This document shows, piece by piece, positions 1-11,526 of a stretch of 64,000 nt of DNA. Position numbers and translations under genes: made by a program. The notes beneath the pieces were generated by a model, which did no database searches, was not told the origin of the DNA, and saw nothing but the letters and a program-made list of their open reading frames with translations. Source of the DNA: Gemmatimonas phototrophica (GTDB lineage: Bacteria > Gemmatimonadota > Gemmatimonadetes > Gemmatimonadales > Gemmatimonadaceae); contig CAMBNV010000002.1 in the NCBI GenBank assembly GCA_945869195.1, positions 1 to 64,000 of the forward strand, in the 5' to 3' direction. How positions within the stretch are numbered: the stretch's first letter is position 1; every line of letters begins with the position of its first letter.

Positions 1-87
1 CGCCTGCGCCATCGTCACGCCGCGATTCCGCACCAGCTTCACCGCTTCCACCTTGAACTCTCTTGTAAACTTCCGTCGCGTACCCAT
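1..87 (-). CDS. IS3-family transposase OrfA, N-terminal fragment (runs off the window)
   Basis: Reading from ATG at 87 on the minus strand gives MGTRRKFTREFKVEAVKLVR and then NRGVTMAQA. This is the characteristic start of the helix-turn-helix OrfA (DUF1153/HTH_Tnp_1) of IS3-family elements, which binds the IS ends and is fused to the OrfB integrase by a -1 frameshift. A GGAGGT ribosome-binding site lies a few bases upstream (94-99 on the forward strand). Only 29 codons are visible, so whether the element is intact is unknown. Confidence 0.75.
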   Translation of the reverse strand, partial: MGTRRKFTREFKVEAVKLVRNRGVTMAQA

Positions 88-138
88 GCCGCACCTCCGA
101 TTCCGAAAGAACACCTAAAGAAGGTGTCCACGGAACCC
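1..138 (-). mobile_element. Partial IS3-family insertion sequence (end with orfA start)
   Basis: Only the first end of the element is in the window; the rest lies beyond position 1. The minus strand carries a transposase start with a good ribosome-binding site, and the DNA behind it (about 100-138) would be the terminal inverted repeat. The exact tip cannot be set without the other end. I place it near the CCCA at 136-139 because sequence resembling the next feature begins there. This is inference. Confidence 0.6.
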
Positions 139-229
139 AGTGCAGCTCACTACTGACAGCCACGCTATTGTAGCGACCGCTGCGCGGTCGCATTTTATGG
201 AGTGTCTGCAGTAGAAGCCCACGTTATAC
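139..229 (+). repeat. attC-like site, left half degraded
   Basis: The right part has the layout of an integron attC site. A terminal hairpin GCGACCGC/GCGGTCGC (173-191) is followed by an ATTTTAT stretch, then a stem-forming CAGTAG (209-214) that pairs with CTACTG (150-155), and finally GTTATAC (223-229) as the R' core. GTTATAC is the exact reverse complement of the left core GTATAAC of the attC-like site at 2573. The left core itself is not recognisable and may have been lost when the IS inserted. Confidence 0.45.
173..191. repeat. Perfect 8-bp inverted repeat, 3-nt loop
   Basis: GCGACCGC (173-180), loop TGC, GCGGTCGC (184-191), followed by ATTTTATGG. By itself it could be taken for a terminator, but it matches in layout the variable terminal structure of the attC-like site at 2573-2666 (a TAGC...GCTGCGC...TCGCATTTT arrangement), so I read it as the tip of an attC hairpin. 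Confidence 0.5.
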
Positions 230-310
230 GGCCAAGAGGGTCCGTTGTAGAGCCGGCATTCCGATTCATGACCAATGCCCCGGTCGTGGACATTGGAGCG
301 ACCAGTGGCC

Positions 311-339
311 TTGCAGGCAACGTGTCCTTAGTGTAGACT
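311..339 (+). promoter_or_regulatory. Sigma70-like promoter of the methyltransferase gene
   Basis: TTGCAG (311-316), a 17-nt spacer and TAGACT (334-339). The start of transcription would fall at about 346-349, on or just before the ATG at 349. The transcript would therefore be leaderless, which fits the absence of a Shine-Dalgarno sequence. The -10 box overlaps the C-box at 336-346. Confidence 0.5.
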
Positions 340-346
340 ATCGGTC
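336..346 (+). promoter_or_regulatory. Single C-box operator over the methyltransferase start
   Basis: GACTATCGGTC fits the controller-protein box GACTnnnAGTC with one mismatch. It overlaps the -10 element and ends two bases before the ATG. In the Esp1396I system a single C-box placed this way lets the C protein repress the methyltransferase gene once it has accumulated. The same reading is likely here. Confidence 0.55.
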
Positions 347-348
347 AC

Positions 349-1524
349 ATGTCGTCCTCCAAACATCTTCAGACGCTCGACCTCTTCTGCGGTTGCGGAG
401 GGATTTCTGCGGGTGCCAGAGCTGCGGGGTTCGATATCGCAGCAGGTCTTGACGTCGAACCGAAGTACATGTCGACGTTCTCGCACAATTTTCGAGACGC
501 TCAGAGTGTCGCGGCAGACTTGACGGAACTCGCCCCGGAGGAGCTTGCCGCCCGCTTGAAGATCAAGCGCGGTCAGCTCGGGCTCTTAGTTGGCGGTCCT
601 CCTTGCCAGGGCTTTTCGAAGAACGTCCCGCGGCGGTCGCGCTACATGGAGGATTCACGGAATCTTCTCGTCTTACGGTTTCTGCAGTACTGCGAGTGGT
701 TTCGCCCTCGCGTCATCATCATGGAAAACGTAGCCGAAATGAAGAACGGCTTCGATGAGGCATACACTGAAGAGATAGTTGAAGCGCTGACCAAGAACGG
801 CTACGCCGTCACGCACGGCGTCCTCAACGCGGCAGACTACGGCGTTCCCCAGCGTCGGCGGCGTGCATTCTTCGTTGCCGTCAGCGACAGTCGTGCTGTC
901 TCCCTCCCCGCTCCCACGCATCGCGCGCGAGAGCGCGAGGGCGACTTGTTTCAATCGCCACGCCACGTTTCGGTTTGGGAGGCGATTGGCGACCTCCCGC
1001 GAGTGGAGCATGGCGAGGGTTCTGATGTGGCGATTTATGCGTCAGATCCGCAATCGCCGTATCAACGTTGGGCTCGTACTCGTTCTGATTCCGTACGAAA
1101 TCACCAAGCCAGACATCTGCAGCCTCTCCAGTACGAGCGTCTCGCGGCGCTCTTGCCTGGACAGGGCCTCAAAGACTTGCCCGCACACCTTCGAACAAAG
1201 GGTGGATACAGCGGTGCATACGGCCGCCTAACAAAAGAAATGGTGGCGCCAACAATTACTCGCTGGGTGTTTCACCCGGGCTCTGGCCGCTGGGGACATC
1301 CGGAAGAGATTCGGACGCTAACGATGAGAGAAACGGCTCGAATTCAGAGCTTTCAAGACGACTACCTGTTTGTGGGGACCTTCATTCAGCAGGCCGGCCA
1401 GCTTGGAAACGCGGTCCCGCCGTTATTGGCCGAAGCGATTATTCGGCATGTTGGCCAACAAGCAGGGTTAATCGGTGTCGAGAAGTTCGATCAAGTCTTG
1501 CATCGACATGCGGTCAACGAGTGA
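349..1524 (+). CDS. DNA (cytosine-5-)-methyltransferase of a type II R-M system
   Basis: 391 aa, usual length for a C5 methyltransferase. It transfers a methyl group from SAM to C5 of cytosine in the recognition site and so protects host DNA from the partner nuclease. Motif I is TLDLFCGCGG (about residues 9-18), motif IV is GGPPCQGFS with catalytic Cys86, motif VI is MENV, motif VIII is QRRRR, and motifs IX/X end in IQSF...QLGNAVPP. The target-recognition region lies between VIII and IX, but the site cannot be deduced. It converges on the nuclease gene, and the two coding ends overlap by 57 bp. There is no ribosome-binding site, so translation is probably leaderless. Base composition is lower in GC than the core genes, which suggests transfer. 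Confidence 0.93.
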   Translation: MSSSKHLQTLDLFCGCGGISAGARAAGFDIAAGLDVEPKYMSTFSHNFRDAQSVAADLTELAPEELAARLKIKRGQLGLLVGGPPCQGFSKNVPRRSRYMEDSRNLLVLRFLQYCEWFRPRVIIMENVAEMKNGFDEAYTEEIVEALTKNGYAVTHGVLNAADYGVPQRRRRAFFVAVSDSRAVSLPAPTHRAREREGDLFQSPRHVSVWEAIGDLPRVEHGEGSDVAIYASDPQSPYQRWARTRSDSVRNHQARHLQPLQYERLAALLPGQGLKDLPAHLRTKGGYSGAYGRLTKEMVAPTITRWVFHPGSGRWGHPEEIRTLTMRETARIQSFQDDYLFVGTFIQQAGQLGNAVPPLLAEAIIRHVGQQAGLIGVEKFDQVLHRHAVNE

Positions 1525-2196
1525 TGGCAACGTGAAGGTGATTGCATTTGTCTCTGCCGTCGGCCACCACGCTGTTTCTCCACTGAAGTGAAGTTGGTTT
1601 TCTCCGAGACCGTGCCAGGCCCACCATTTCTTCCCGGTCTTCACGTGGATCCCGTGTAGAGCGGACAGTTGCTCCTTCTTCTTGGATTGTTTCTGAATTG
1701 ACCATTGCCAAGAAAACTCAGATGCTTTGAACAATTCGGGCGACTTGGCAGTGACCAAGATTCTTTCAAAGTACGTAGCGGAAAGGTCGGCTCTGATTAA
1801 CAGGCGCGAGTAACCAATCTCCGACAAGCCGTACTCCTTCAGACTCTCTCGAGCGTGCGCGTTGCAGAATTCGATGATCGAGTTACCGAGTACCTGAGCA
1901 CCTGTCGCTGTTTGTGACGCTTTGATCAGTTCGACCTGATTTGGAAGCTTTGCTCGCTTCCATGTTACGGGCGTAGATGCCTTCGTTGACTTCACCTGCC
2001 ACCCTATTCCTTCGGCTGGCCTGACTACGTCAACAAAATCATACGTCTCAAGTCTTGTTGCATTTCTCACCTCAGCGACGATGGATTCCACTACCGCCCC
2101 CGGAACCGATGCGGGGTCGGAGAACGGGAGGCTTGTGAAGCGCGTAATTAGGTGCGCGATTCTCTTCAGCTCTCGATGATTGGAGAGTACGGTCAC
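1468..2196 (-). CDS. Probable type II restriction endonuclease, PD-(D/E)XK-like
   Basis: 242 aa. I do not recognise the family by sequence. The call rests on context: it follows the controller gene with a GTGA overlap and converges on a C5 methyltransferase. It also rests on a plausible nuclease core, with acidic residues D53 and D56, then Q67-V68-K69 ending a hydrophobic strand (GIGWQVKS), which resembles D-x(n)-(E/Q)xK; Glu37 in the preceding helix could be the first metal ligand. The start is GTG at 2196, overlapping the stop of the controller gene, so expression is probably coupled to it. The C-terminal half is rich in Trp and Lys (for example KTGKKWWAWHG). The recognition site is unknown. 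Confidence 0.75.
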   Translation of the reverse strand: MTVLSNHRELKRIAHLITRFTSLPFSDPASVPGAVVESIVAEVRNATRLETYDFVDVVRPAEGIGWQVKSTKASTPVTWKRAKLPNQVELIKASQTATGAQVLGNSIIEFCNAHARESLKEYGLSEIGYSRLLIRADLSATYFERILVTAKSPELFKASEFSWQWSIQKQSKKKEQLSALHGIHVKTGKKWWAWHGLGENQLHFSGETAWWPTAETNAITFTLPSLVDRMSMQDLIELLDTD

Positions 2197-2405
2197 GCGC
2201 GTCCTTCGAGGAGTTCCGAGGCTCCGACACCGAGCGCGCGCGCGAGTCGCTCCACAATCTCGAGAGTCGGGTTGCGCGTTCCGGTTTCGACTCCGCTGAG
2301 ATATGTGCGATGAATACTTGCAAGATCGGCCAGTTGTTCCTGAGACAAGTTTCTTGCCTCGCGCGCTCGCCTGACATTGCGTCCGAAATCACGACTAATC
2401 GACAT
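2193..2405 (-). CDS. R-M controller (C) protein, XRE-family HTH regulator
   Basis: 70 aa, the usual length of C proteins. One XRE-type helix-turn-helix covers nearly the whole chain: LSQEQLADLASIHRTYLSGVE is helices 2-3 (about residues 19-39), followed by RNPTLEIVERLARALGV. C proteins bind C-boxes as dimers. They activate their own C-R operon at low level, shut it down at high level and, in some systems, repress the methyltransferase, which delays nuclease production after the system enters a new host. A tandem C-box lies 24-49 bp upstream of the ATG. No Shine-Dalgarno sequence is seen. Confidence 0.9.
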   Translation of the reverse strand: MSISRDFGRNVRRAREARNLSQEQLADLASIHRTYLSGVETGTRNPTLEIVERLARALGVGASELLEGRA

Positions 2406-2428
2406 TGGGGAAACGAGCCATCTTGTAG

Positions 2429-2454
2429 TCTATCAGTCAACAGACTATGAGTCA
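2429..2454 (-). promoter_or_regulatory. Tandem C-box operator of the C-R operon
   Basis: Two 11-bp boxes, GTCTATCAGTC (2429-2439, one mismatch to GACTnnnAGTC) and GACTATGAGTC (2444-2454, perfect), are separated by the four bases AACA. This is the box-4bp-box layout of well-studied C-protein operators. On the minus strand TTGACT (2440-2435) could be the -35 element lying in the proximal box. A 17-nt spacer then puts a poor -10 at 2417-2412 and transcription at about the ATG. That would be a weak, activator-dependent, leaderless promoter (inference). Confidence 0.65.
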
Positions 2455-2572
2455 CAATCCAAATCTCCGACTTCGCGGCTTCGCGCCATCGAACCATCGA
2501 CGGCGGATGCCACGATGCAACCATCGTCAGAAGGAAGGTCCAGTATATGGGCCGAAGCATCTCAACGCGGCC

Positions 2573-2666
2573 GTATAACGTGCGTTGCACCAGTCGGGCG
2601 ATTTTTGGTAGCTCGCTGCGCTCGCATTTTGTTTGATTCGCCCGCAGGTGAACTTGGGCGTTAGTC
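2573..2666 (+). repeat. attC-like integron recombination site
   Basis: A 94-bp imperfect palindrome. The left core GTATAAC (2573-2579) is followed by GTGCGTTGCACC. The right arm GGTGAACTTGGGC is followed by core GTTAGTC (2660-2666). Inside are a second pair, GGGCGA (2596-2601) with TCGCCC (2638-2643), and a terminal structure containing GCTCGCTGCGCTCGCATTTT. Length, core sites and nesting are those of a gene-cassette attC. Each core has one mismatch to the RYYYAAC/GTTRRRY consensus. It closes the R-M cassette and opens the DinB cassette. Confidence 0.65.
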
Positions 2667-2709
2667 CGACGGGCGCACAGTCCACTCATCGACTCTTCTT
2701 CGGGCGTCC

Positions 2710-3258
2710 ATGTCGTCTGAGATCCGCGAGATACTTCTGCGACAGCTCGACGTCTCTTGGCGCCTCGCGAGCCACCATCTGGATGGGCTCTCCACCGAGG
2801 AGTGTCTCTGGTCTCCCGCGACTGTCGGGCCCCGACTCATTGCGGTGGCACCCGGCCAATGGATCGCGCGAGTACCCGAGCACGAACGGTACGATCTAGG
2901 GCCAGCCAGCATCGGGTGGCTCACTTGGCACTTGGGCTACTGGTGGTCGATGGCCCTGAACCGATCGTTCGGCGATGGTACGCTCACCGCCGCGCAAGTG
3001 GTCTGGCCGGGATCGGGCGTTGCGACGGTGGAATGGATTGCGGCGCGGCATGCCGAGTGGCGGCAACGGCTCGAGTCCGCATCCGACGCGGAGATGCTCG
3101 GACGCGAGCGGACGCGGTGGCCATTCACGCACCGCCCGTTCGCGGACCTTGCCGCGTGGGTGAACATCGAGTTGATGAAGAACGCAGCAGAGATCGGCTA
3201 TGTACGATTTCTCTACGCCGTGCGCGAGAGCAGGGAGCGTCCCGGAGGCGCGGCCTAA
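2710..3258 (+). CDS. DinB-like (DUF664/DinB_2) family protein
   Basis: 182 aa. The sequence has the DinB four-helix-bundle pattern: an early helix with HH (ASHHLDGL, about residues 21-28) and the family hallmark WHLGYWW (about residues 73-79), a metal-ligand His followed by aromatics. A C-terminal helix, ELMKNAAEIGYVRFLY, has Asn where many members have a third His. DinB-superfamily proteins are metal-binding and often thiol-dependent transferases, but the substrate here is unknown. The ATG is 44 nt after an attC-like site, and the TAA stop lies inside a GCCTAAC core, both typical of an integron cassette gene. Confidence 0.8.
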   Translation: MSSEIREILLRQLDVSWRLASHHLDGLSTEECLWSPATVGPRLIAVAPGQWIARVPEHERYDLGPASIGWLTWHLGYWWSMALNRSFGDGTLTAAQVVWPGSGVATVEWIAARHAEWRQRLESASDAEMLGRERTRWPFTHRPFADLAAWVNIELMKNAAEIGYVRFLYAVRESRERPGGAA

Positions 3259-3275
3259 CGGCAGTTGGTGACCGA
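3253..3275 (+). repeat. Left half of an attC-like site
   Basis: GCCTAAC (3253-3259) is a perfect RYYYAAC core and contains the stop codon of the DinB-like gene. GGCAGTTGGTG follows as a possible L'' box. No matching right half (expected ...CAACTGCCGTTAGGC) is seen in the next 350 bp, so the site seems truncated where other mobile DNA has joined. Confidence 0.4.
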
Positions 3276-3622: not shown

Positions 3623-4483
3623 CTATAACAGCTGGCCTTGATGGTAGAGCGAGGCCAAGTCCATCGTAAGGGCGACGGCCACGTGCAGAACCGCTCCGGG
3701 CCAAATCGACCCTGTCCTCAGGCTCATCAATCCCAATCCCAGTCCGGCAAGTATTGAAGCAAACGCCTCGGGGGTGGGTTTGCCCCAATGGATCATGCAA
3801 TAGGGGACCATAGCCATCGGCACCGCCAAGCTCCCAAGTGTTCCCGCCAGTCGATAAAGCAAAAACCCGCGAAAAAGACTTTCAAGCGCAATGAATTGAA
3901 CAAGATAGAACGCTTCCCAGAGGAAGAAGCGGGGCCAAAGGCTCACGCCATCGGGAATCCGGTAAAACGGATACCGGCTCAAAAATTCCGATTGTCCAGT
4001 CGTCCAACCCAACACCAACACCATGATCAAGGCAAAGCCGACATAAATGGACAGATGGTTTTTGGTTTTACCGATCCGCCAACCCATGCTTTCACGTAGC
4101 GGAAGTCCACCCACCCACACCCAGACCAGAGGCAAACCCAAATAGCCGGTGATGGTGACGGTGGCCCACCAAAGAAGATTTAGTAGGCGCCAATCTTCCC
4201 CCGTCAGGGCGCGTACACTGTCCGCCCATGCGGGACAACCCACGGTGCGAGCCAACCCCTCGAGCATGAGTGGTCCGTTCAACCGTGCGGCATAGTGAAC
4301 CCCGGTGAGCATCGCCGCCAACAGCGTCAGCAGCAGCCAGGTTTCGCGAATCGACTGAGGATTGGGCAACGGAGCGGCATGGGTTCCCCAAACCATCTTT
4401 GCCAAGATTTGAAACTCCCCACGGATCCCGGTTGGTGGGGCGGGGGAGGAAGGAACGGGTTTTGGATCAGGTTTGGACGGCAT
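3623..4483 (-). CDS. CPBP-family intramembrane metalloprotease (Abi/CAAX-like)
   Basis: 286 aa from ATG 4483; a TTG at 4510 in the same frame is a less likely start. After a Pro-rich cytoplasmic N-terminus (about 25 aa) there are roughly seven hydrophobic segments. The conserved core is ESLFRGFLLYRL (first motif, ES instead of the common EE), then MIHWGKPTPEAFASILAGLGLGL with the second-motif His, and a final AVLHVAVALTMDL. CPBP proteins are membrane Glu-type proteases related to CAAX prenyl endopeptidases; their substrates are mostly unknown. It overlaps by 17 bp the tail of a permease-like frame at 4467, so the two probably came together from a donor genome. Codons are AT-richer than in the core genes. 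Confidence 0.8.
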   Translation of the reverse strand: MPSKPDPKPVPSSPAPPTGIRGEFQILAKMVWGTHAAPLPNPQSIRETWLLLTLLAAMLTGVHYAARLNGPLMLEGLARTVGCPAWADSVRALTGEDWRLLNLLWWATVTITGYLGLPLVWVWVGGLPLRESMGWRIGKTKNHLSIYVGFALIMVLVLGWTTGQSEFLSRYPFYRIPDGVSLWPRFFLWEAFYLVQFIALESLFRGFLLYRLAGTLGSLAVPMAMVPYCMIHWGKPTPEAFASILAGLGLGLMSLRTGSIWPGAVLHVAVALTMDLASLYHQGQLL

Positions 4484-4694
4484 CAAATAGGACCCAAGAT
4501 AGTGGCCCAAAAAAAAGAATTGGCAACCAAGCGGCGAGCGCGGGGGTCAGGATATTGGCGGTGTCTAGCATTTGAAAAACCTGGATGCTGATGAAAAACA
4601 GGCCGCGCCCGCCGCATTCGGGGCATCGCAACGTCAACGCGCGCCTGATGCGCGCCCCGTGATCGGGCATGATGGTGGGCGCACTCATCCGCAC
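4467..4694 (-). pseudogene. Chimeric frame: DUF983 N-terminus joined to an LptF/LptG-like C-terminus
   Basis: 75 codons. Residues 1-32 (4694-4599) are GC-rich and read RRALTLRCPECGGRGLF, the zinc-ribbon start of DUF983 membrane proteins, whose usual second Cys pair and helices are missing. From about codon 33 codon use turns AT-rich (TTT TTC ATC, CAG GTT TTT CAA). The sequence ILTPALAAWLPILFFGPLSW resembles the last transmembrane segment of LptF/LptG permeases. The frame happens to stay open across the joint. I read this as a recombination junction near 4598, not as a functional gene. DUF983 and Lpt assignments are from memory of the families. Confidence 0.5.
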
Positions 4695-4746: not shown

Positions 4747-5913
4747 ATGCCCGGCCGTCATCATCTCTTCGTTCCCGGTCCGACCAACGTTCCTGATCGC
4801 GTGCTCCGCGCGATGCACCGCGCCCAAGAGGACCATCGCTCCAGCGTATTCCCGGAGCTGACTCAGGGACTGCTGCGTGACTTGGAGCCGGTGTTCGGCA
4901 CAGTCCGCGGCCGGCCCTTCCTCTTTGCGAGCACCGGGACCGGTATGTGGGAGGCCGCGCTGACCAACACGCTCGCGCCCGGGGATCGTCTCCTGTCGAT
5001 CCGGTTCGGACAGTTCTCGCATCTGTTCATCGATACGGCGGAGCGGCTGGGGTTTCAGGTCGACGTGATCGACCTTGAGTGGGGTGAGGCGGTCGATCCG
5101 GCGCGCATCGCCGAGGCGCTTGCCGCGGACACCGCGCACGCGATCAAGGCGGTGCTCCTGGTGCACAACGAGACCGCCACTGGCGTGACGAACGACGTCG
5201 CCGGTGTCCGCGAAGCAATCGACGACGTCGACCATCCCGCGCTGCTCCTCGTCGACGGGGTGAGCTCGATCGGCTCGCTCGAGTTTCGGTTCGACGACTG
5301 GGGTGTGGATGTGGCGATCTGTGGTTCGCAGAAGGGGTTCATGATGCCAGCTGGACTTGGCATGCTCTGTCTCTCGCCCAAAGCGATGGCCCTCGTGGAG
5401 CACGCCCGCTGCCCGCGGGCCTATTTCGATCTTCGTCCCCAGGTGCTGCACAATGATCAGGGCTACTTCCCCTACACTCCGCCTCTCACGCACCTATTCG
5501 GCCTGCGCGAGGCGCTCGACATGATCGCTGAGCAGGGGATGCCCGCGATCGTGGCGAGCCATGCGCGACTCGCTGAAGGGGTGCGCCGAGCGGTCGCCGC
5601 GTGGGAGCTCAAGCTGTTCGCGCGCGATCCGGAGCGCCGCTCAAACACAGTCACCGCGATTGTCGTTCCCGAGGGGAAAGACGCGAAACAGGTGATTGAC
5701 CTGGCGTACCGACGGTGGGACCTGGCGCTGGGCTCAGGACTTGGTCGATTGAACGGGACGGTATTCCGGATTGGCCACCTCGGGGATCTCAACGCCGGGA
5801 TGCTCTTGGGCGCGCTCGCGCTGACGGAGTTGGCGTTGCACGATGCGGGGATCAGTGTGCCGTACGGCGCGGGTGTCACAGCCGCGCAGCGCTGGTATCA
5901 CGAGTCGGCATGA
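4747..5913 (+). CDS. Serine-glyoxylate / alanine-glyoxylate aminotransferase (class V, PLP)
   Basis: 388 aa from ATG 4747 (MPGRHHLFVPGPTNVP), chosen because the family starts just before the FVPGPTN motif; the open frame extends upstream without homology. It is a fold-type I PLP enzyme. STGTGMWEAAL binds the cofactor phosphate, LLVDGVSSIGS carries the Asp that pairs with the PLP ring, and SQKGFM holds the Schiff-base Lys. It moves the amino group of serine (or alanine) to glyoxylate, giving glycine and hydroxypyruvate. The next gene, overlapping by ATGA, is a hydroxypyruvate/glyoxylate reductase, so serine is probably the donor. Confidence 0.85.
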   Translation: MPGRHHLFVPGPTNVPDRVLRAMHRAQEDHRSSVFPELTQGLLRDLEPVFGTVRGRPFLFASTGTGMWEAALTNTLAPGDRLLSIRFGQFSHLFIDTAERLGFQVDVIDLEWGEAVDPARIAEALAADTAHAIKAVLLVHNETATGVTNDVAGVREAIDDVDHPALLLVDGVSSIGSLEFRFDDWGVDVAICGSQKGFMMPAGLGMLCLSPKAMALVEHARCPRAYFDLRPQVLHNDQGYFPYTPPLTHLFGLREALDMIAEQGMPAIVASHARLAEGVRRAVAAWELKLFARDPERRSNTVTAIVVPEGKDAKQVIDLAYRRWDLALGSGLGRLNGTVFRIGHLGDLNAGMLLGALALTELALHDAGISVPYGAGVTAAQRWYHESA

Positions 5914-6887
5914 ACGGCGCTCCGCGACCCCGAGTGGGGGTGACGCGCCGGCTGCCCGCGGCCGTCGAGCGCGCGTTGCACGAGCGATTCGATCTGGTGC
6001 AGTCCGACGCAACGCGCTCACTCGACGCAAATGAACTGATCGCGATGCTGCGGGAGTGTGACGCGGTGCTGCCGACCGTCACTGACCACCTCAACGACGT
6101 GGTCCTCGGGGTCGCCGGCGTTAGGTGTCGGCTGCTCGCCAACTTTGGCAGCGGCGTGGACCACATCGACCTTGCGGCCGCCACGAGGGCCGGGATAGTC
6201 GTCACGAATACCCCTGACGTGCTTACCGACGACACCGCGGATCTCACCGTGGCACTCATGCTCGCCGTGATGCGCCGTCTTGGCGAGGGGGAGCGCGCGG
6301 TGCGCGCGGGCAGCTGGAGCGGCTGGCACCCGACGCAGTTTCTTGGTCGACGACTGCGTGGCCAGACGCTTGGAATCGTTGGACTGGGACGGATTGGTCG
6401 CGCCGTCGCAGAGCGCGCGGTCCGCGGCTTCGGCATGCAGGTCATTGCCTGGAGCCGCTCCGCTCGCAGCAGTGCGGATGACGCGACGCCCATTGAGCGC
6501 GTGACCACACTCGACCAGCTGCTGGAGGCGAGTCAGGTGGTCAGCCTGCACTGCCCACTCGTCCCGGCGACGCGGCACCTGATCAGCCATGCGCAGTTCG
6601 CGCGCATGCGCCCAGGCGCCGTCCTGATCAATACCTCGCGCGGTCCGGTCGTAGATGAGGCGGCGTTGGTCGCTGCCCTCGAGACCGGACAGATCGCCGG
6701 CGCTGGGCTCGATGTGTATGAAGAGGAACCCCGCGTGCATCCTGGGCTCGTGGCACGTGAGGATGTCGTCCTCTTGCCGCACCTCGGGAGCGCCACAGTG
6801 GAGACGCGCGAAGCGATGGGGCTGCGCGCGCTTGACAATCTCGTGGCTCACTTCGCTGGACGAATCCCACCAGACCGCGTCAACTGA
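5910..6887 (+). CDS. D-2-hydroxyacid dehydrogenase, likely hydroxypyruvate/glyoxylate reductase
   Basis: 325 aa. The start ATG at 5910 overlaps the aminotransferase stop by 4 bp. The NAD(P)-binding fold has GIVGLGRIGRAVAERA (about residues 154-169). The family signature continues with a SLHCPLVPATRHLI stretch and NTSRGPVVDEAAL. The Arg/Glu/His catalytic residues include Glu in VYEEEP and His in LLPHLGSATVETREAMG. With the gene before it, it can turn serine-derived hydroxypyruvate into D-glycerate, which enters glycolysis, or it can reduce glyoxylate. Cofactor preference cannot be read from the sequence. Confidence 0.85.
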   Translation: MNGAPRPRVGVTRRLPAAVERALHERFDLVQSDATRSLDANELIAMLRECDAVLPTVTDHLNDVVLGVAGVRCRLLANFGSGVDHIDLAAATRAGIVVTNTPDVLTDDTADLTVALMLAVMRRLGEGERAVRAGSWSGWHPTQFLGRRLRGQTLGIVGLGRIGRAVAERAVRGFGMQVIAWSRSARSSADDATPIERVTTLDQLLEASQVVSLHCPLVPATRHLISHAQFARMRPGAVLINTSRGPVVDEAALVAALETGQIAGAGLDVYEEEPRVHPGLVAREDVVLLPHLGSATVETREAMGLRALDNLVAHFAGRIPPDRVN

Positions 6888-6998
6888 CGGCGCGCACGGC
6901 GACGGCGGCGGTGGGGCTGTCGGCAGGCGTCGGCCGAGTCGCCTTGCTCGTGGTAGTCGCGACTCCCTAGTTTTCAGCATCCCACCCTCTCCGATCAT

Positions 6999-8243
6999 AT
7001 GACCACATATAAGCACGCGCGCGTCCCCGCCAAGGGTGAACGCATCGAAGCCTCCGCCGGGGTATTTCACGTCCCGGATCAGCCTGTCATCCCCTTCATC
7101 GAAGGCGACGGCACCGGCGCAGACATCTGGCGTGCGAGCGTCCGCGTCTTCGACGCGGCTGTCGCGCGGGCCTACGGGGCCAAGCGGAAGATCCATTGGA
7201 TGGAGATTTTCGCTGGCGAGAAGGCGCATAACCTGACGGGCGAGTGGATGCCGGCCGAGTCGCTCGAAGCGGTGCGCGAGTTCAAGGTGGCGATCAAGGG
7301 CCCACTTACCACGCCGGTCGGTGGTGGAATCCGATCGCTGAACGTAGCGCTGCGCCAGGAGCTCGATCTCTATGCCTGCATTCGGCCGGTGCGCTATTTC
7401 GAGGGCGTTGGCGCACCGGTGAAGAACCCCGGCAAAGTTGACATGGTGATTTTCCGCGAAAATATCGAAGACGTTTACAGCGGGATCGAGTTCAGGGCGG
7501 GATCTGCTGACGCCGAGAAGCTGCGGCTCTTCATCGAGAAGGAGTTTGGGAAGAAGATCCGCCCACAGTCCGCCATCGGCATCAAGCCAATGTCGGCCTT
7601 CGGTTCCAAGCGACTCATCGAAATGGCGCTCCGGTACGCTATCAAGAATGGACGTCCGCACGTGACGATGATGCACAAGGGGAACATCATGAAGTTCACC
7701 GAAGGCGGCTTCCGCGACTGGGGGTACGAACTCGCCCGCGAGAAGTTCGGCAACGAGGTGGTCGCTGAGGCCGATCTCGGCCTGGCCGGCAGTACCGCTC
7801 GCGCCGACGCGGTGGTGCTCAAGGACCGGATCGCCGACTCGATGTTCCAGCAGATCCTGCTGCGCCCAGAAGAGTATTCCGTTGTCGCTACGCCCAACCT
7901 CAATGGCGACTACATCTCCGACGCGCTCGCGGCGGAAGTCGGCGGTCTCGGCATCGCCCCTGGTGGCAACGTCGGTGACGAGGCGGCGGTGTTCGAAGCG
8001 ACGCATGGCACGGCGCCGAAGTATGCCGGCCTCGACAAGATCAATCCCGGGAGCGTGATCCTCTCCGGCGTGATGATGTTTGAGCATATGGGGTGGAACG
8101 AGGCCGGTAAGCTCATCGTGCATGGACTAGAGAAGGCGATCGCGGCAAAGACGGTGACGTATGATCTCGCGAGGCAGATGGCCGGCGGGACCGAGGTGTC
8201 CACGACCGGGTTCGCTGACGCGATCATCAAGGGGATGTCGTGA
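6999..8243 (+). CDS. icd: Isocitrate dehydrogenase, NADP-type
   Basis: 414 aa, standard length for the bacterial NADP-dependent enzyme. It oxidatively decarboxylates isocitrate to 2-oxoglutarate. The substrate loop [20 protein letters not shown] has Ser113, the position phosphorylated by AceK in E. coli; RPVRYFEG and [14 protein letters not shown] follow. The dinucleotide region [23 protein letters not shown] is near residues 325-350. The stop overlaps the GTG start of pepA. About 110 bp of non-coding DNA lies upstream with no clear promoter. Confidence 0.95.
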
Positions 8244-9718
8244 AGTCGATTGCCTTCGGCGTGCGCGCAGGTGATCCTGCCCGGATCGCAACCCCGTTGC
8301 TCGTCGTCGCACTCTCAGCCGACCCCGCGATGCCCCGCGCGCTGGCAGCGCTGGACAAGCGCTACGGGGGGGCGCTCTCGCGCGCAATTCGGCAAAAAGA
8401 TTTTCAGGGCGGCAAAGACGAGACCCTGTTCCTGTTGGCGCCAGGCGGAGGCCCAGCCCGCGTGCTGCTCGTCGGCACCGGCACCGGGGATGGCGTGAAG
8501 GGACTCACGCGGGCCGCGACGCTCGCGGGGCGCCGGGCGAACGGACTCGGTGTCGGGTCGCTCGCCTTCTGGGCGGCGGATCTCACGGACGCCGCGCTCG
8601 AGGGCGCAGTCGTCGGACTCTCGCTCGGAGCGTGGGAATTCAAGGAACTGCATGCACCGCTCCCGGTGGCCAAGCGTCGCAAGCCGCTGGGTGCGGTCGT
8701 ACTCTGCGTTCCCACTGTGCGCGCGGCGGGTCAGGCGCTCACGGCCGGCGTTGCTGTGGCCGAAGGTCAGCGCATCGCGCGCCGTCTCGCGATGTTGCCG
8801 GGAAATATCTGTACCCCCGAGTACCTCGCGCGTACGGCGCGCGAGATCGGCAAACGGCATCGGCTCACGGTCAGGGTCTTGGGTCGTCGCGAGATGCGGC
8901 GACTCAAGATGGGCTCGTTCCTCGCGGTCGCGCAGGCGACCGCCCAGGACCCCAAGCTGATCGTGCTCGAGTACAGGGGCGGACGCCGGGGTGTGGCACC
9001 CGTCGTGTTGGTAGGGAAGGGACTCTGCTTCGACACCGGTGGCGTGTCGCTCAAGCCCGGGGCTGGCATGGAACTCATGAAGTTTGATATGAGCGGCGCG
9101 GCCGCCGTCCTTGGCGCCATCGAAGCGATTGCTCGGATGAAGCTCCGGATCAACGTGGTCGGTCTTGTCGGGGCCACGACGAACGTGATCGGCAGCGATG
9201 CCATGATGCCTGGCGACGTCGTCCGGGCGAGCAACGGGAAGACGATCGAGATCCAGAACACCGACGCCGAGGGCCGGCTCGTACTCGCGGACGTCCTGCA
9301 CTACGCCAAGCGCTACAAGCCGCAGGCGGTGATCGACGCCGCGACCCTGACCGGCGCCTGTGTCGTGGCGCTAGGCAACGTGGCCGTGGGTGTGATGGGC
9401 AACGATCAGGCGGTGATCGACGAGATTCTCACTGCTGGTCGTCGCGGTGGTGAGGTCGGATGGCAACTCCCGATGTTTGAGGAGTATCAAGAGCTCATCA
9501 GGTCTGATGTGGCCGACATGCGGAACATCGGCGGACGCGCTGCGGGGACGATCACGGCCGCGCTCTTTCTAGCGGAGTTCACCGAGGGGATGCCTTGGGT
9601 GCATCTGGATGTCGCAGGGACGGCGTACTCCGAGTCCGATCTGGTGGTCATTCCAAAGGGCCCGACCGGCACACCGGTGCGCACCTTCGTGGAGTTCGTG
9701 CGCGGGAGAGCGCGCTGA
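8240..9718 (+). CDS. pepA: Leucyl (cytosol) aminopeptidase, M17
   Basis: 492 aa from GTG 8240, which overlaps the icd stop. The N-terminal macrodomain-like half is variable. The catalytic half begins around [19 protein letters not shown] and contains the Lys/Asp ligands, followed by the M17 signature [14 protein letters not shown] (around residues 346-359). It is a two-metal aminopeptidase that removes N-terminal residues from peptides in the cytoplasm; some members also bind DNA, which cannot be judged here. The last base of its frame is shared with the unusual start of the next gene. Confidence 0.93.
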
Positions 9719-11526
9719 AGCTGCTGATCGCGTTGGGTGTGGCACTCGCCACCACGCCCCTTTACGGGCAGCCCCCAACGCCCCGGCCGCCGGCGCCGGT
9801 CGTGGTGGGACCGGATAGCGCCCGCGCGCGCGTTCCCGTGGCGACGTTGGCGGAGACGGTGCCGCGCGACACAGTGGTTGTCGATACGGTGAAGGCGCCG
9901 ATCGCGGTCGCCTTGCGCCCAGCGAGCCCTGAGATTCGCGGCCGGCGCACCGTCTGGGACCGTCAGGAAATCTTCGCGAGTGGTGCCCTCACTCTACCCG
10001 AGCTGCTCGCGCAGGTGCCTGGTGGCACGGTGTTCAATGCGGGGTTCATCGCGGCGCCGAGCGCGACCTCGTGGTATGGGGAGCCGGGACGAGTGCGCGT
10101 CTATCTGGACGGCGTCGAGCTCGACGGCCTCGACCCACGTGTCGGACGGGTGCAAGATCTGTCGACGGTGCAGCTCGCGGCACTCGAGGAGGTGGCGGTC
10201 GAACGGGCGGCGGGTGAGCTGCGCGTATTTCTCCGGTCTTGGCGCGTGCGGCTCACGACGGCACTCACCCGGACCGATATCGCGACCGGGTCGGAGAACA
10301 CCAATCTCTATCGCGGCTACTTTGGCAAGCGGACGAACCAGGGTGGCGTGCTGCAGGTCGCAGCACAACAATATTCGACCACCAGCGCCCGCACCGCAGG
10401 CGACGGCGACGCCCTGGCGGCGTTCGGTCGCCTGGGCTTTGCGCGCGGGCGACTCACGGTCGATGCGGTGGGGACGCGGTTCGGACGTACGCGGTCGGCG
10501 ACGGTTCGCCACGTCGTCACTGGCACGCTCGATCCGAACGCGATCGGAGCCTTTACCGGGAACGACGCCGCGGCCTATGTGCGCGCCGCCTGGGGCAACG
10601 CCGACAGCGCAGGGTTCTGGATGCAGGCCATCGCCGCCTCTCTCCGACACGCCGAGACCGGCGATTCATCCGTCGGCGCCGACTCGGCACAGTCGCTATC
10701 GCAGTATCTCGCAACGGCAGGCATGACGCGATGGGGTGCGCGACTCTCAGCTGCGGCGCGCCTCCGCGTGCAGGGAGGAGAGAGCCGCCTCGCGCCGGAG
10801 GTGCGCGGGTCCTGGGAGGGCCGCTGGCTCGCGCTGAGCGGGCTGCTCGAGGATGGTGGTCCTGACTCCACCAGTCGTGCTGACGCGCTCGCCACCCTGA
10901 CGCCATTTCCCTGGCTGGAGGTCGCGCTCGCGCATTCGATTCACACGCCTGACGACTCGGCATTCGGTGGCCCGGCTCGCACCAGCTCCCGGGCCGAGGT
11001 GGCCGCGCGCGTGTACGGGCGCTGGATCGGCGTTGGTGCGGTGCAGCGGTCGTCGGCTCTCGTGATGGGCATGCCAGTGTTCGACTCGCTCTTTGTCCCG
11101 ACCAATATTGCCCCATCAACGGGAATTGAGGCCAGCTTCGCGGGTCAGGTCTGGGGTCCGTACTCCTTCGAGTGGCGGGGCATCCGATGGGCGAAGGAGG
11201 CGTTCTACCGGCCTCAGGTGGAGTCGCACGCAGAGCTTCGGGTGACCTCGAACTTCACCCGGCAGATCAAGCGCGGCACCTTCGGGCTGACCGCAGGGCT
11301 GACCCATGATTACCGCGGCGCTGTAGAGATGCCGGCGGACCCTGGCCAGGTCTCGAGAGCCGAGGGGGCGGGATGGGTCGGTGGCTACCTGGAACTGCGC
11401 CTGGGTAGCGCGCGGATCTTCTGGTACAACCGGAATGCGGTCGGGAAGGTGTTCGAGACGGTTCCTGGCTACCTGATGCCCCGCCTGGTTCAGCTGTATG
11501 GCGTCCGTTGGGAGTTTTGGAACTAG
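9715..11526 (+). CDS. Outer-membrane protein with TonB-receptor plug-like domain
   Basis: About 603 aa if translation begins at CTG 9715. That start gives a clean signal peptide ([18 protein letters not shown], cleavage before Gln), has GGGAGAG just upstream and overlaps the pepA stop (CTGA). No ATG or GTG lies nearby in frame except inside the signal. A Pro-rich segment is followed by a plug-like domain (about residues 70-160: LPELLAQVPGG..., then VRVYLDGVELDGLDP and the region around LEEVAVERAAGELRVFLR). A long beta-rich barrel-like region ends in an aromatic WEFWN, typical of outer-membrane proteins. No TonB box is evident and the ligand is unknown. Confidence 0.7.
   Translation: MKLLIALGVALATTPLYGQPPTPRPPAPVVVGPDSARARVPVATLAETVPRDTVVVDTVKAPIAVALRPASPEIRGRRTVWDRQEIFASGALTLPELLAQVPGGTVFNAGFIAAPSATSWYGEPGRVRVYLDGVELDGLDPRVGRVQDLSTVQLAALEEVAVERAAGELRVFLRSWRVRLTTALTRTDIATGSENTNLYRGYFGKRTNQGGVLQVAAQQYSTTSARTAGDGDALAAFGRLGFARGRLTVDAVGTRFGRTRSATVRHVVTGTLDPNAIGAFTGNDAAAYVRAAWGNADSAGFWMQAIAASLRHAETGDSSVGADSAQSLSQYLATAGMTRWGARLSAAARLRVQGGESRLAPEVRGSWEGRWLALSGLLEDGGPDSTSRADALATLTPFPWLEVALAHSIHTPDDSAFGGPARTSSRAEVAARVYGRWIGVGAVQRSSALVMGMPVFDSLFVPTNIAPSTGIEASFAGQVWGPYSFEWRGIRWAKEAFYRPQVESHAELRVTSNFTRQIKRGTFGLTAGLTHDYRGAVEMPADPGQVSRAEGAGWVGGYLELRLGSARIFWYNRNAVGKVFETVPGYLMPRLVQLYGVRWEFWN

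Follow-up and report, generated by a model that had tools for sequence, protein, structure and literature searches.

A controller-regulated type II restriction-modification system as a probable chromosomal integron cassette in Gemmatimonadaceae

Restriction-modification (R-M) genes have already been noted in integron cassettes (PMC9892861, PMC4176335), R-M cassettes have been found in Xanthomonas arrays (PMC12444791), and integrons as stores of anti-phage genes are cited in PMC12444791 and PMC12409362. Gemmatimonadota, in turn, is among the phyla listed as carrying integrons (PMC8618304), although a title-level literature search combining integrons with Gemmatimonadota, Gemmatimonadetes or Gemmatimonas found no article titled on that combination. 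Both R-M cassettes and Gemmatimonadota integrons have therefore been reported before. Here we ask whether three R-M genes lying between palindromes at the end of a Gemmatimonadaceae contig make up such a cassette or arrived there by other means. The DNA that we analysed, called the window below, comprises bases 1-64000 of contig C2, from its very first base, in a genome assembly of 2.33 Mb in 15 contigs. A first-pass annotation had read these genes as a complete type II R-M system between two attC-like sites with cores facing the cassette. It had also proposed an attC covariance model and a search of related genomes for the same locus without the cassette. The features at this end of the window are the following, where M, R and C stand for the methyltransferase, endonuclease and controller genes:

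1..149, minus strand: left end of an IS3-family element, with the start of orfA (HTH_Tnp_1 match, 1-87) and the terminal repeat TGAGCTGCACTGGGTTC; target duplication CTAC at 150-153.
150..229, plus strand: left attC, 3' part, with R' GTTATAC at 223-229; the 5' part, GCATAACGCAGCTTG, is on contig C5.
224..2660, plus strand: R-M gene cassette, from the left crossover G/TTATAC (first base after it) to the right crossover G/TTAGTC, by attC model boundaries and circle-form pairing.
336..349, minus strand: C-protein operator upstream of M, TGTGACCGATAGTC, an exact match of TGTGACNNATAGTC.
349..1524, plus strand: M, C5-cytosine DNA methyltransferase, 391 aa (PF00145, E 7.6e-57; PADLOC MTase_II, E 2e-99).
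1468..2196, minus strand: R, predicted restriction endonuclease of an unrecognised family, 242 aa, assigned from its position in a conserved M-R-C module.
2193..2405, minus strand: C, HTH controller protein of 70 aa, whose gene overlaps the start of R (PADLOC Control_protein, 1.5e-20).
2426..2440, minus strand: second, adjacent C-protein operator (right site), TTGACTGATAGACTA, found by sequence inspection.
2443..2456, minus strand: C-protein operator upstream of C/R (left site), TGTGACTCATAGTC, an exact match of TGTGACNNATAGTC, identical in the homologous module L010.
2573..2666, plus strand: complete attC site, with R'' GTATAAC, L'' GTT-G-CACC with an extrahelical G, L' GGTGAAC and R' GTTAGTC.
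2661..3259, plus strand: possible next cassette, with a DinB-family gene at 2710-3258 (PF12867), ending in an R''-like box GCCTAAC (3253-3259).

We built a covariance model from 12 attC sites of relatives' integron arrays, which had been gathered through an integrase search followed by a structural scan of the arrays; the window was excluded from training. Over 148 kb, the model placed the right attC at 2573-2666 with exact ends (70.7 bits, E 1.7e-17) and, leaving aside the left site, its next match in the window had an E value of 0.86. The R'', L'', L' and R' boxes and the extrahelical G by which an integron gene cassette is recognised are all present at the 3' end of the gene set. The site aligns without gaps to one in an array of another genus (L066:5612-5705), with 80 of 94 bases identical and a score of 66, against a mean of -1.2 and a maximum of 10 for 500 shuffled versions. 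Its L box reads CACC/GGTG where the relatives have CAGC/GCTG, a two-sided compensatory change that keeps the pairing. Folded alone with its current R', the right attC is as stable as its shuffles (z -0.04); with the R' that it would have in the excised circle, it is more stable than mononucleotide shuffles (z -3.3). Rfam at gathering thresholds gave no match within the window, and a short exact attC pattern, which allowed too short a gap, found nothing over the genome itself.

The first-pass annotation was right that GTTATAC (223-229) and GTATAAC (2573-2579) sit inside a perfect 14-bp inverted repeat (220-233 and 2569-2582). Excision would bring G(2660) next to TTATACGGCC (224-233), and in the predicted circle this stretch forms 12 uninterrupted base pairs with the R'' region; 9-11 are reported as usual (PMC2727003). 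An inverted repeat of this kind is expected from cassette excision. Its two arms are in the main the halves into which the attC of a single cassette has been split, and not a pair of facing attC sites. Both edges are attC, as had been claimed, but the cores do not face each other: both sites point in the plus direction, and the left one is partial.

Insertion of the IS3-family element cuts the left attC at 149/150. Contig C5 starts with the right end of such an IS, its terminal repeat in inverse order, followed by GTAGCAAGCTGCGTTATGC, and on inspection the end of an ORF there reads as orfB. Four exact copies of the terminal repeat are present in the genome, one each on C1, C2, C5 and C12. Left IS ends are found on C2 and C12, and only the C2 flank, CTAC, fits the 4-bp duplication GTAG at C5; C12 was rejected as the partner of C5, its flank GACT mismatching the target duplication. 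When the flanks are joined across the IS they form a 95-bp attC, 81/95 identical and gap-free to a site of the same genus (L059:17958-18052). Compared with five relatives, 12 of the 33 stem pairs in the rebuilt site have changed on both sides and still pair, a number reached by none of 500 shuffles, slid versions giving at most 2. A left attC in the opposite orientation was considered and dropped, the extrahelical bases lying on the R''-L'' arm in the plus orientation. The left boundary of the cassette accordingly falls at the crossover point of a preceding attC in the same orientation. Because terminal repeats, target duplication and rebuilt attC agree, the C5-IS-C2 join appears strongly supported. 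Together with the same-type attC sites of relatives, the covariance model also bears out the central claim of the earlier annotation: the gene set reads as a complete R-M system in an integron cassette between two attC sites, both in plus orientation. In the search of relatives for a cassette-free locus, no member of the genus with an empty site was found, the other genomes of the genus lacking this flank.

The integrase, which the first-pass annotation had thought absent from the neighbourhood, is on C5, a contig that would be joined to C2 through one IS copy. It lies at C5:15278-16225 (TIGR02249, 404.7 bits against a cut-off of 265), free of stops, on the strand of the array and ~15 kb into the contig. 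Two more attC sites on C5 point the same way. At sequence level, linkage of the integrase to the array is indicated by the matching IS ends, the target duplication and the rebuilt attC. Because C5 carries the integrase and joins via the IS, the window's apparent lack of one looks like an effect of the assembly, which the IS probably broke at the contig end. An IS in that position can make an integron array seem integrase-less. The same insertion has probably locked the cassette in place: excision depends on recombination between the two attC sites, and the left one is split.

We then consider the cargo. The C5 methyltransferase and the controller named by the first-pass annotation are both confirmed, the latter as an HTH protein. 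M has intact PPCQG, ENV, QRRRR and GNAVPP motifs, and the best PDB matches of C are C.BclI (2e-13) and C.AhdI (1.5e-9). Within the 64 kb there are exactly two exact matches of TGTGACNNATAGTC, one before M and one before C, and with a predicted controller and operators before M and C/R the set has the make-up of a C-protein-controlled R-M system. R and C run against the direction of the array and the operators are internal, and on this basis we expect the genes to be expressed without help from the integron promoter. A homologous M-R-C module was found in L010, a metagenome-assembled genome titled delta proteobacterium, in which M is 59% and R 51% identical, C shares 37 of 70 residues, and the M-R-C order, the convergent layout and the operator arrangement are the same. 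No attC site was found at the L010 module; near it, an ORF (L010:8388-8861) reads like a Vsr-type mismatch endonuclease. With its predicted C5 methyltransferase, nuclease and C.BclI/C.AhdI-like controller, the cargo forms a coherent type II set as read from its sequence.

The least familiar part is the nuclease. R had no convincing match in Pfam, NCBIfam, PADLOC or PDB, and structure prediction performed poorly, giving two models with mean pLDDT of 45 and 52 and no recognised nuclease fold. The earlier call of a nuclease, lacking a library match, is carried instead by the M-R-C layout conserved elsewhere. Among 298 genomes of the phylum a search with R gave one weak match (E 5e-4), none was obtained in plasmids and phages, and viral contigs yielded a single homolog, L100. 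Residues E37, D53, D56, Q67 and K69 are conserved in the three homologs (window, L010 and L100), and E37...D53/D56...Q67-x-K69 could be a PD-(D/E)XK-type site. The L100 homolog (L100:4001-4699, 49% identity) lies on a phage-like contig, on which an ORF at 1915-3000 reads like a RecA/UvsX-type protein; no methyltransferase was seen beside the homolog in the examined stretch. R offers a candidate new family of restriction enzymes, and we consider the chances about even that it represents an undescribed family within a controller-regulated system that would be safe to start in any host into which it recombined. If this is true, Gemmatimonadota integrons would be a store of unrecognised defence genes, because one relative of R belongs to a chromosomal M-R-C module and another stands alone on a phage-like contig.

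Other explanations of the locus have to be weighed against this evidence. The genes could be an R-M island inserted independently between attC-like palindromes, with the inverted repeat arising by chance or as a transposon-like terminal repeat. The L010 module, at which no attC was found, indicates that other means of movement are possible; both sites flanking the R-M genes are, however, gap-free matches to attC sites in relatives' arrays (80/94 and 81/95), and the M-R-C module takes up the whole stretch from one crossover point to the other, so that an island of this kind is extremely improbable. Nor do we favour a CALIN, that is, an attC cluster without an integrase and far from any. Such a reading would agree with a window that holds no integrase and with a genome whose other attC groups are on C1, C5 and C15, but it has to contend with C5: this contig opens with the opposite end of the IS that begins C2, along with a fitting target duplication and the part of the left attC that is lacking on C2, and an integrase is encoded on its array strand ~15 kb in. 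We judge a CALIN very unlikely.

A further alternative concerns the middle gene, which might not encode a restriction enzyme at all; M would in that case be a solitary methyltransferase under the control of C, and the gene beside it unrelated. That R matches no family and that its lone homolog outside an M-R-C module is in a phage-like contig would be compatible with this. Against it, L010 keeps the order of M, R and C, their convergent layout and the operator arrangement, and Esp1396I is described as having its operators placed likewise, in front of M and of C/R (PMC3758141). We therefore regard this alternative as unlikely, and take the locus to be, very probably, a C-protein-regulated type II R-M system that forms one cassette of the chromosomal integron of a Gemmatimonadaceae bacterium.

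As such a cassette, the set would be inserted or excised when the integrase recombines the folded bottom strand of attC. In a new cell, M would methylate the host target, while C, acting at the operators in front of M and of C/R, would hold back the endonuclease at first and turn M down afterwards; the new host would in this way be protected before cutting by R begins. Its own operators would make expression independent of the integron promoter. The later insertion of the IS3-family element would then have split the left attC and locked the cassette in place.

Like the published R-M integron cassettes, this one is part of a chromosomal array and carries its R-M genes between attC sites. Compared by description, it differs from them in its Gemmatimonadaceae host, in its set of three genes, which brings along a controller and operators of its own, in its endonuclease of an unrecognised family and in the left attC broken by an IS. 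To the growing number of defence genes known in integron cassettes it adds, from Gemmatimonadota, what is probably a complete R-M system under controller regulation. Its likeness to Esp1396I-type systems lies in a controller gene joined to R, in a single operator in front of M with two in tandem in front of C/R, and in GAC...GTC boxes with outer TG; unlike in those systems, the controller is nearer to C.BclI and C.AhdI, the central spacer is not TATA, and R has no sequence kinship to any solved structure.

The cassette has a G+C content of 56%, against 64-65% in its surroundings. The family assignment follows from a relative, G080, which belongs to the same family as the window and whose integrase coordinates coincide with those on Gemmatirosa kalamazoonensis plasmid NZ_CP007129.1. 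That a cassette would be notable in such a chromosome is a weak claim: an integrase search found integron integrases in 82 of 148 sampled Gemmatimonadaceae genomes (30/35 genera), and the attC model had matches in 12 of 17 genomes of the genus, with a maximum of 108 attC in one genome. Chromosomal integrons of the family (G129, G073 and G004) carry the same attC types as the window. In G129 and G004 the integrase lies upstream of the array on the attC strand, the same-strand feature being shared with the genome studied here. That genome has only ~10 attC sites, in scattered groups, compared with 87-108 in G129 and G073. Its further matches to the attC model are at G000:C1:499829-508070, C5:77274 and C15:4825. 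The large integrons of the genus, with 108 attC matches in G073 and 87 in G129, include several clusters (L061, L059, L079 and L080).

Finally, we examined the neighbouring genes. The R''-like box GCCTAAC at the end of the DinB interval is one base off the expected GACTAAC. The rest of that attC was not found, the attC model having no match at 2661..3259, and the DinB gene remains a tentative cassette because its homologs in relatives have no convincing attC beside them. On C5, between the attC sites and the integrase, L007 5060-8446 encodes a large enzyme that combines an N6-methylase domain with a type ISP C-terminal domain, which two tandem C5 methyltransferases adjoin (5060-10828); the attC model had no match among these methylase genes. 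A ParE-like toxin gene (L007:14181-14741) with a small upstream gene lies near the integrase and no attC was found beside it, ParE-type genes being common cassette cargo. In the window itself, 3623-4510 encodes a CPBP-family membrane protease with a sub-cut-off match to the archaeomyxosortase MrtA (66.5 vs 200 bits).
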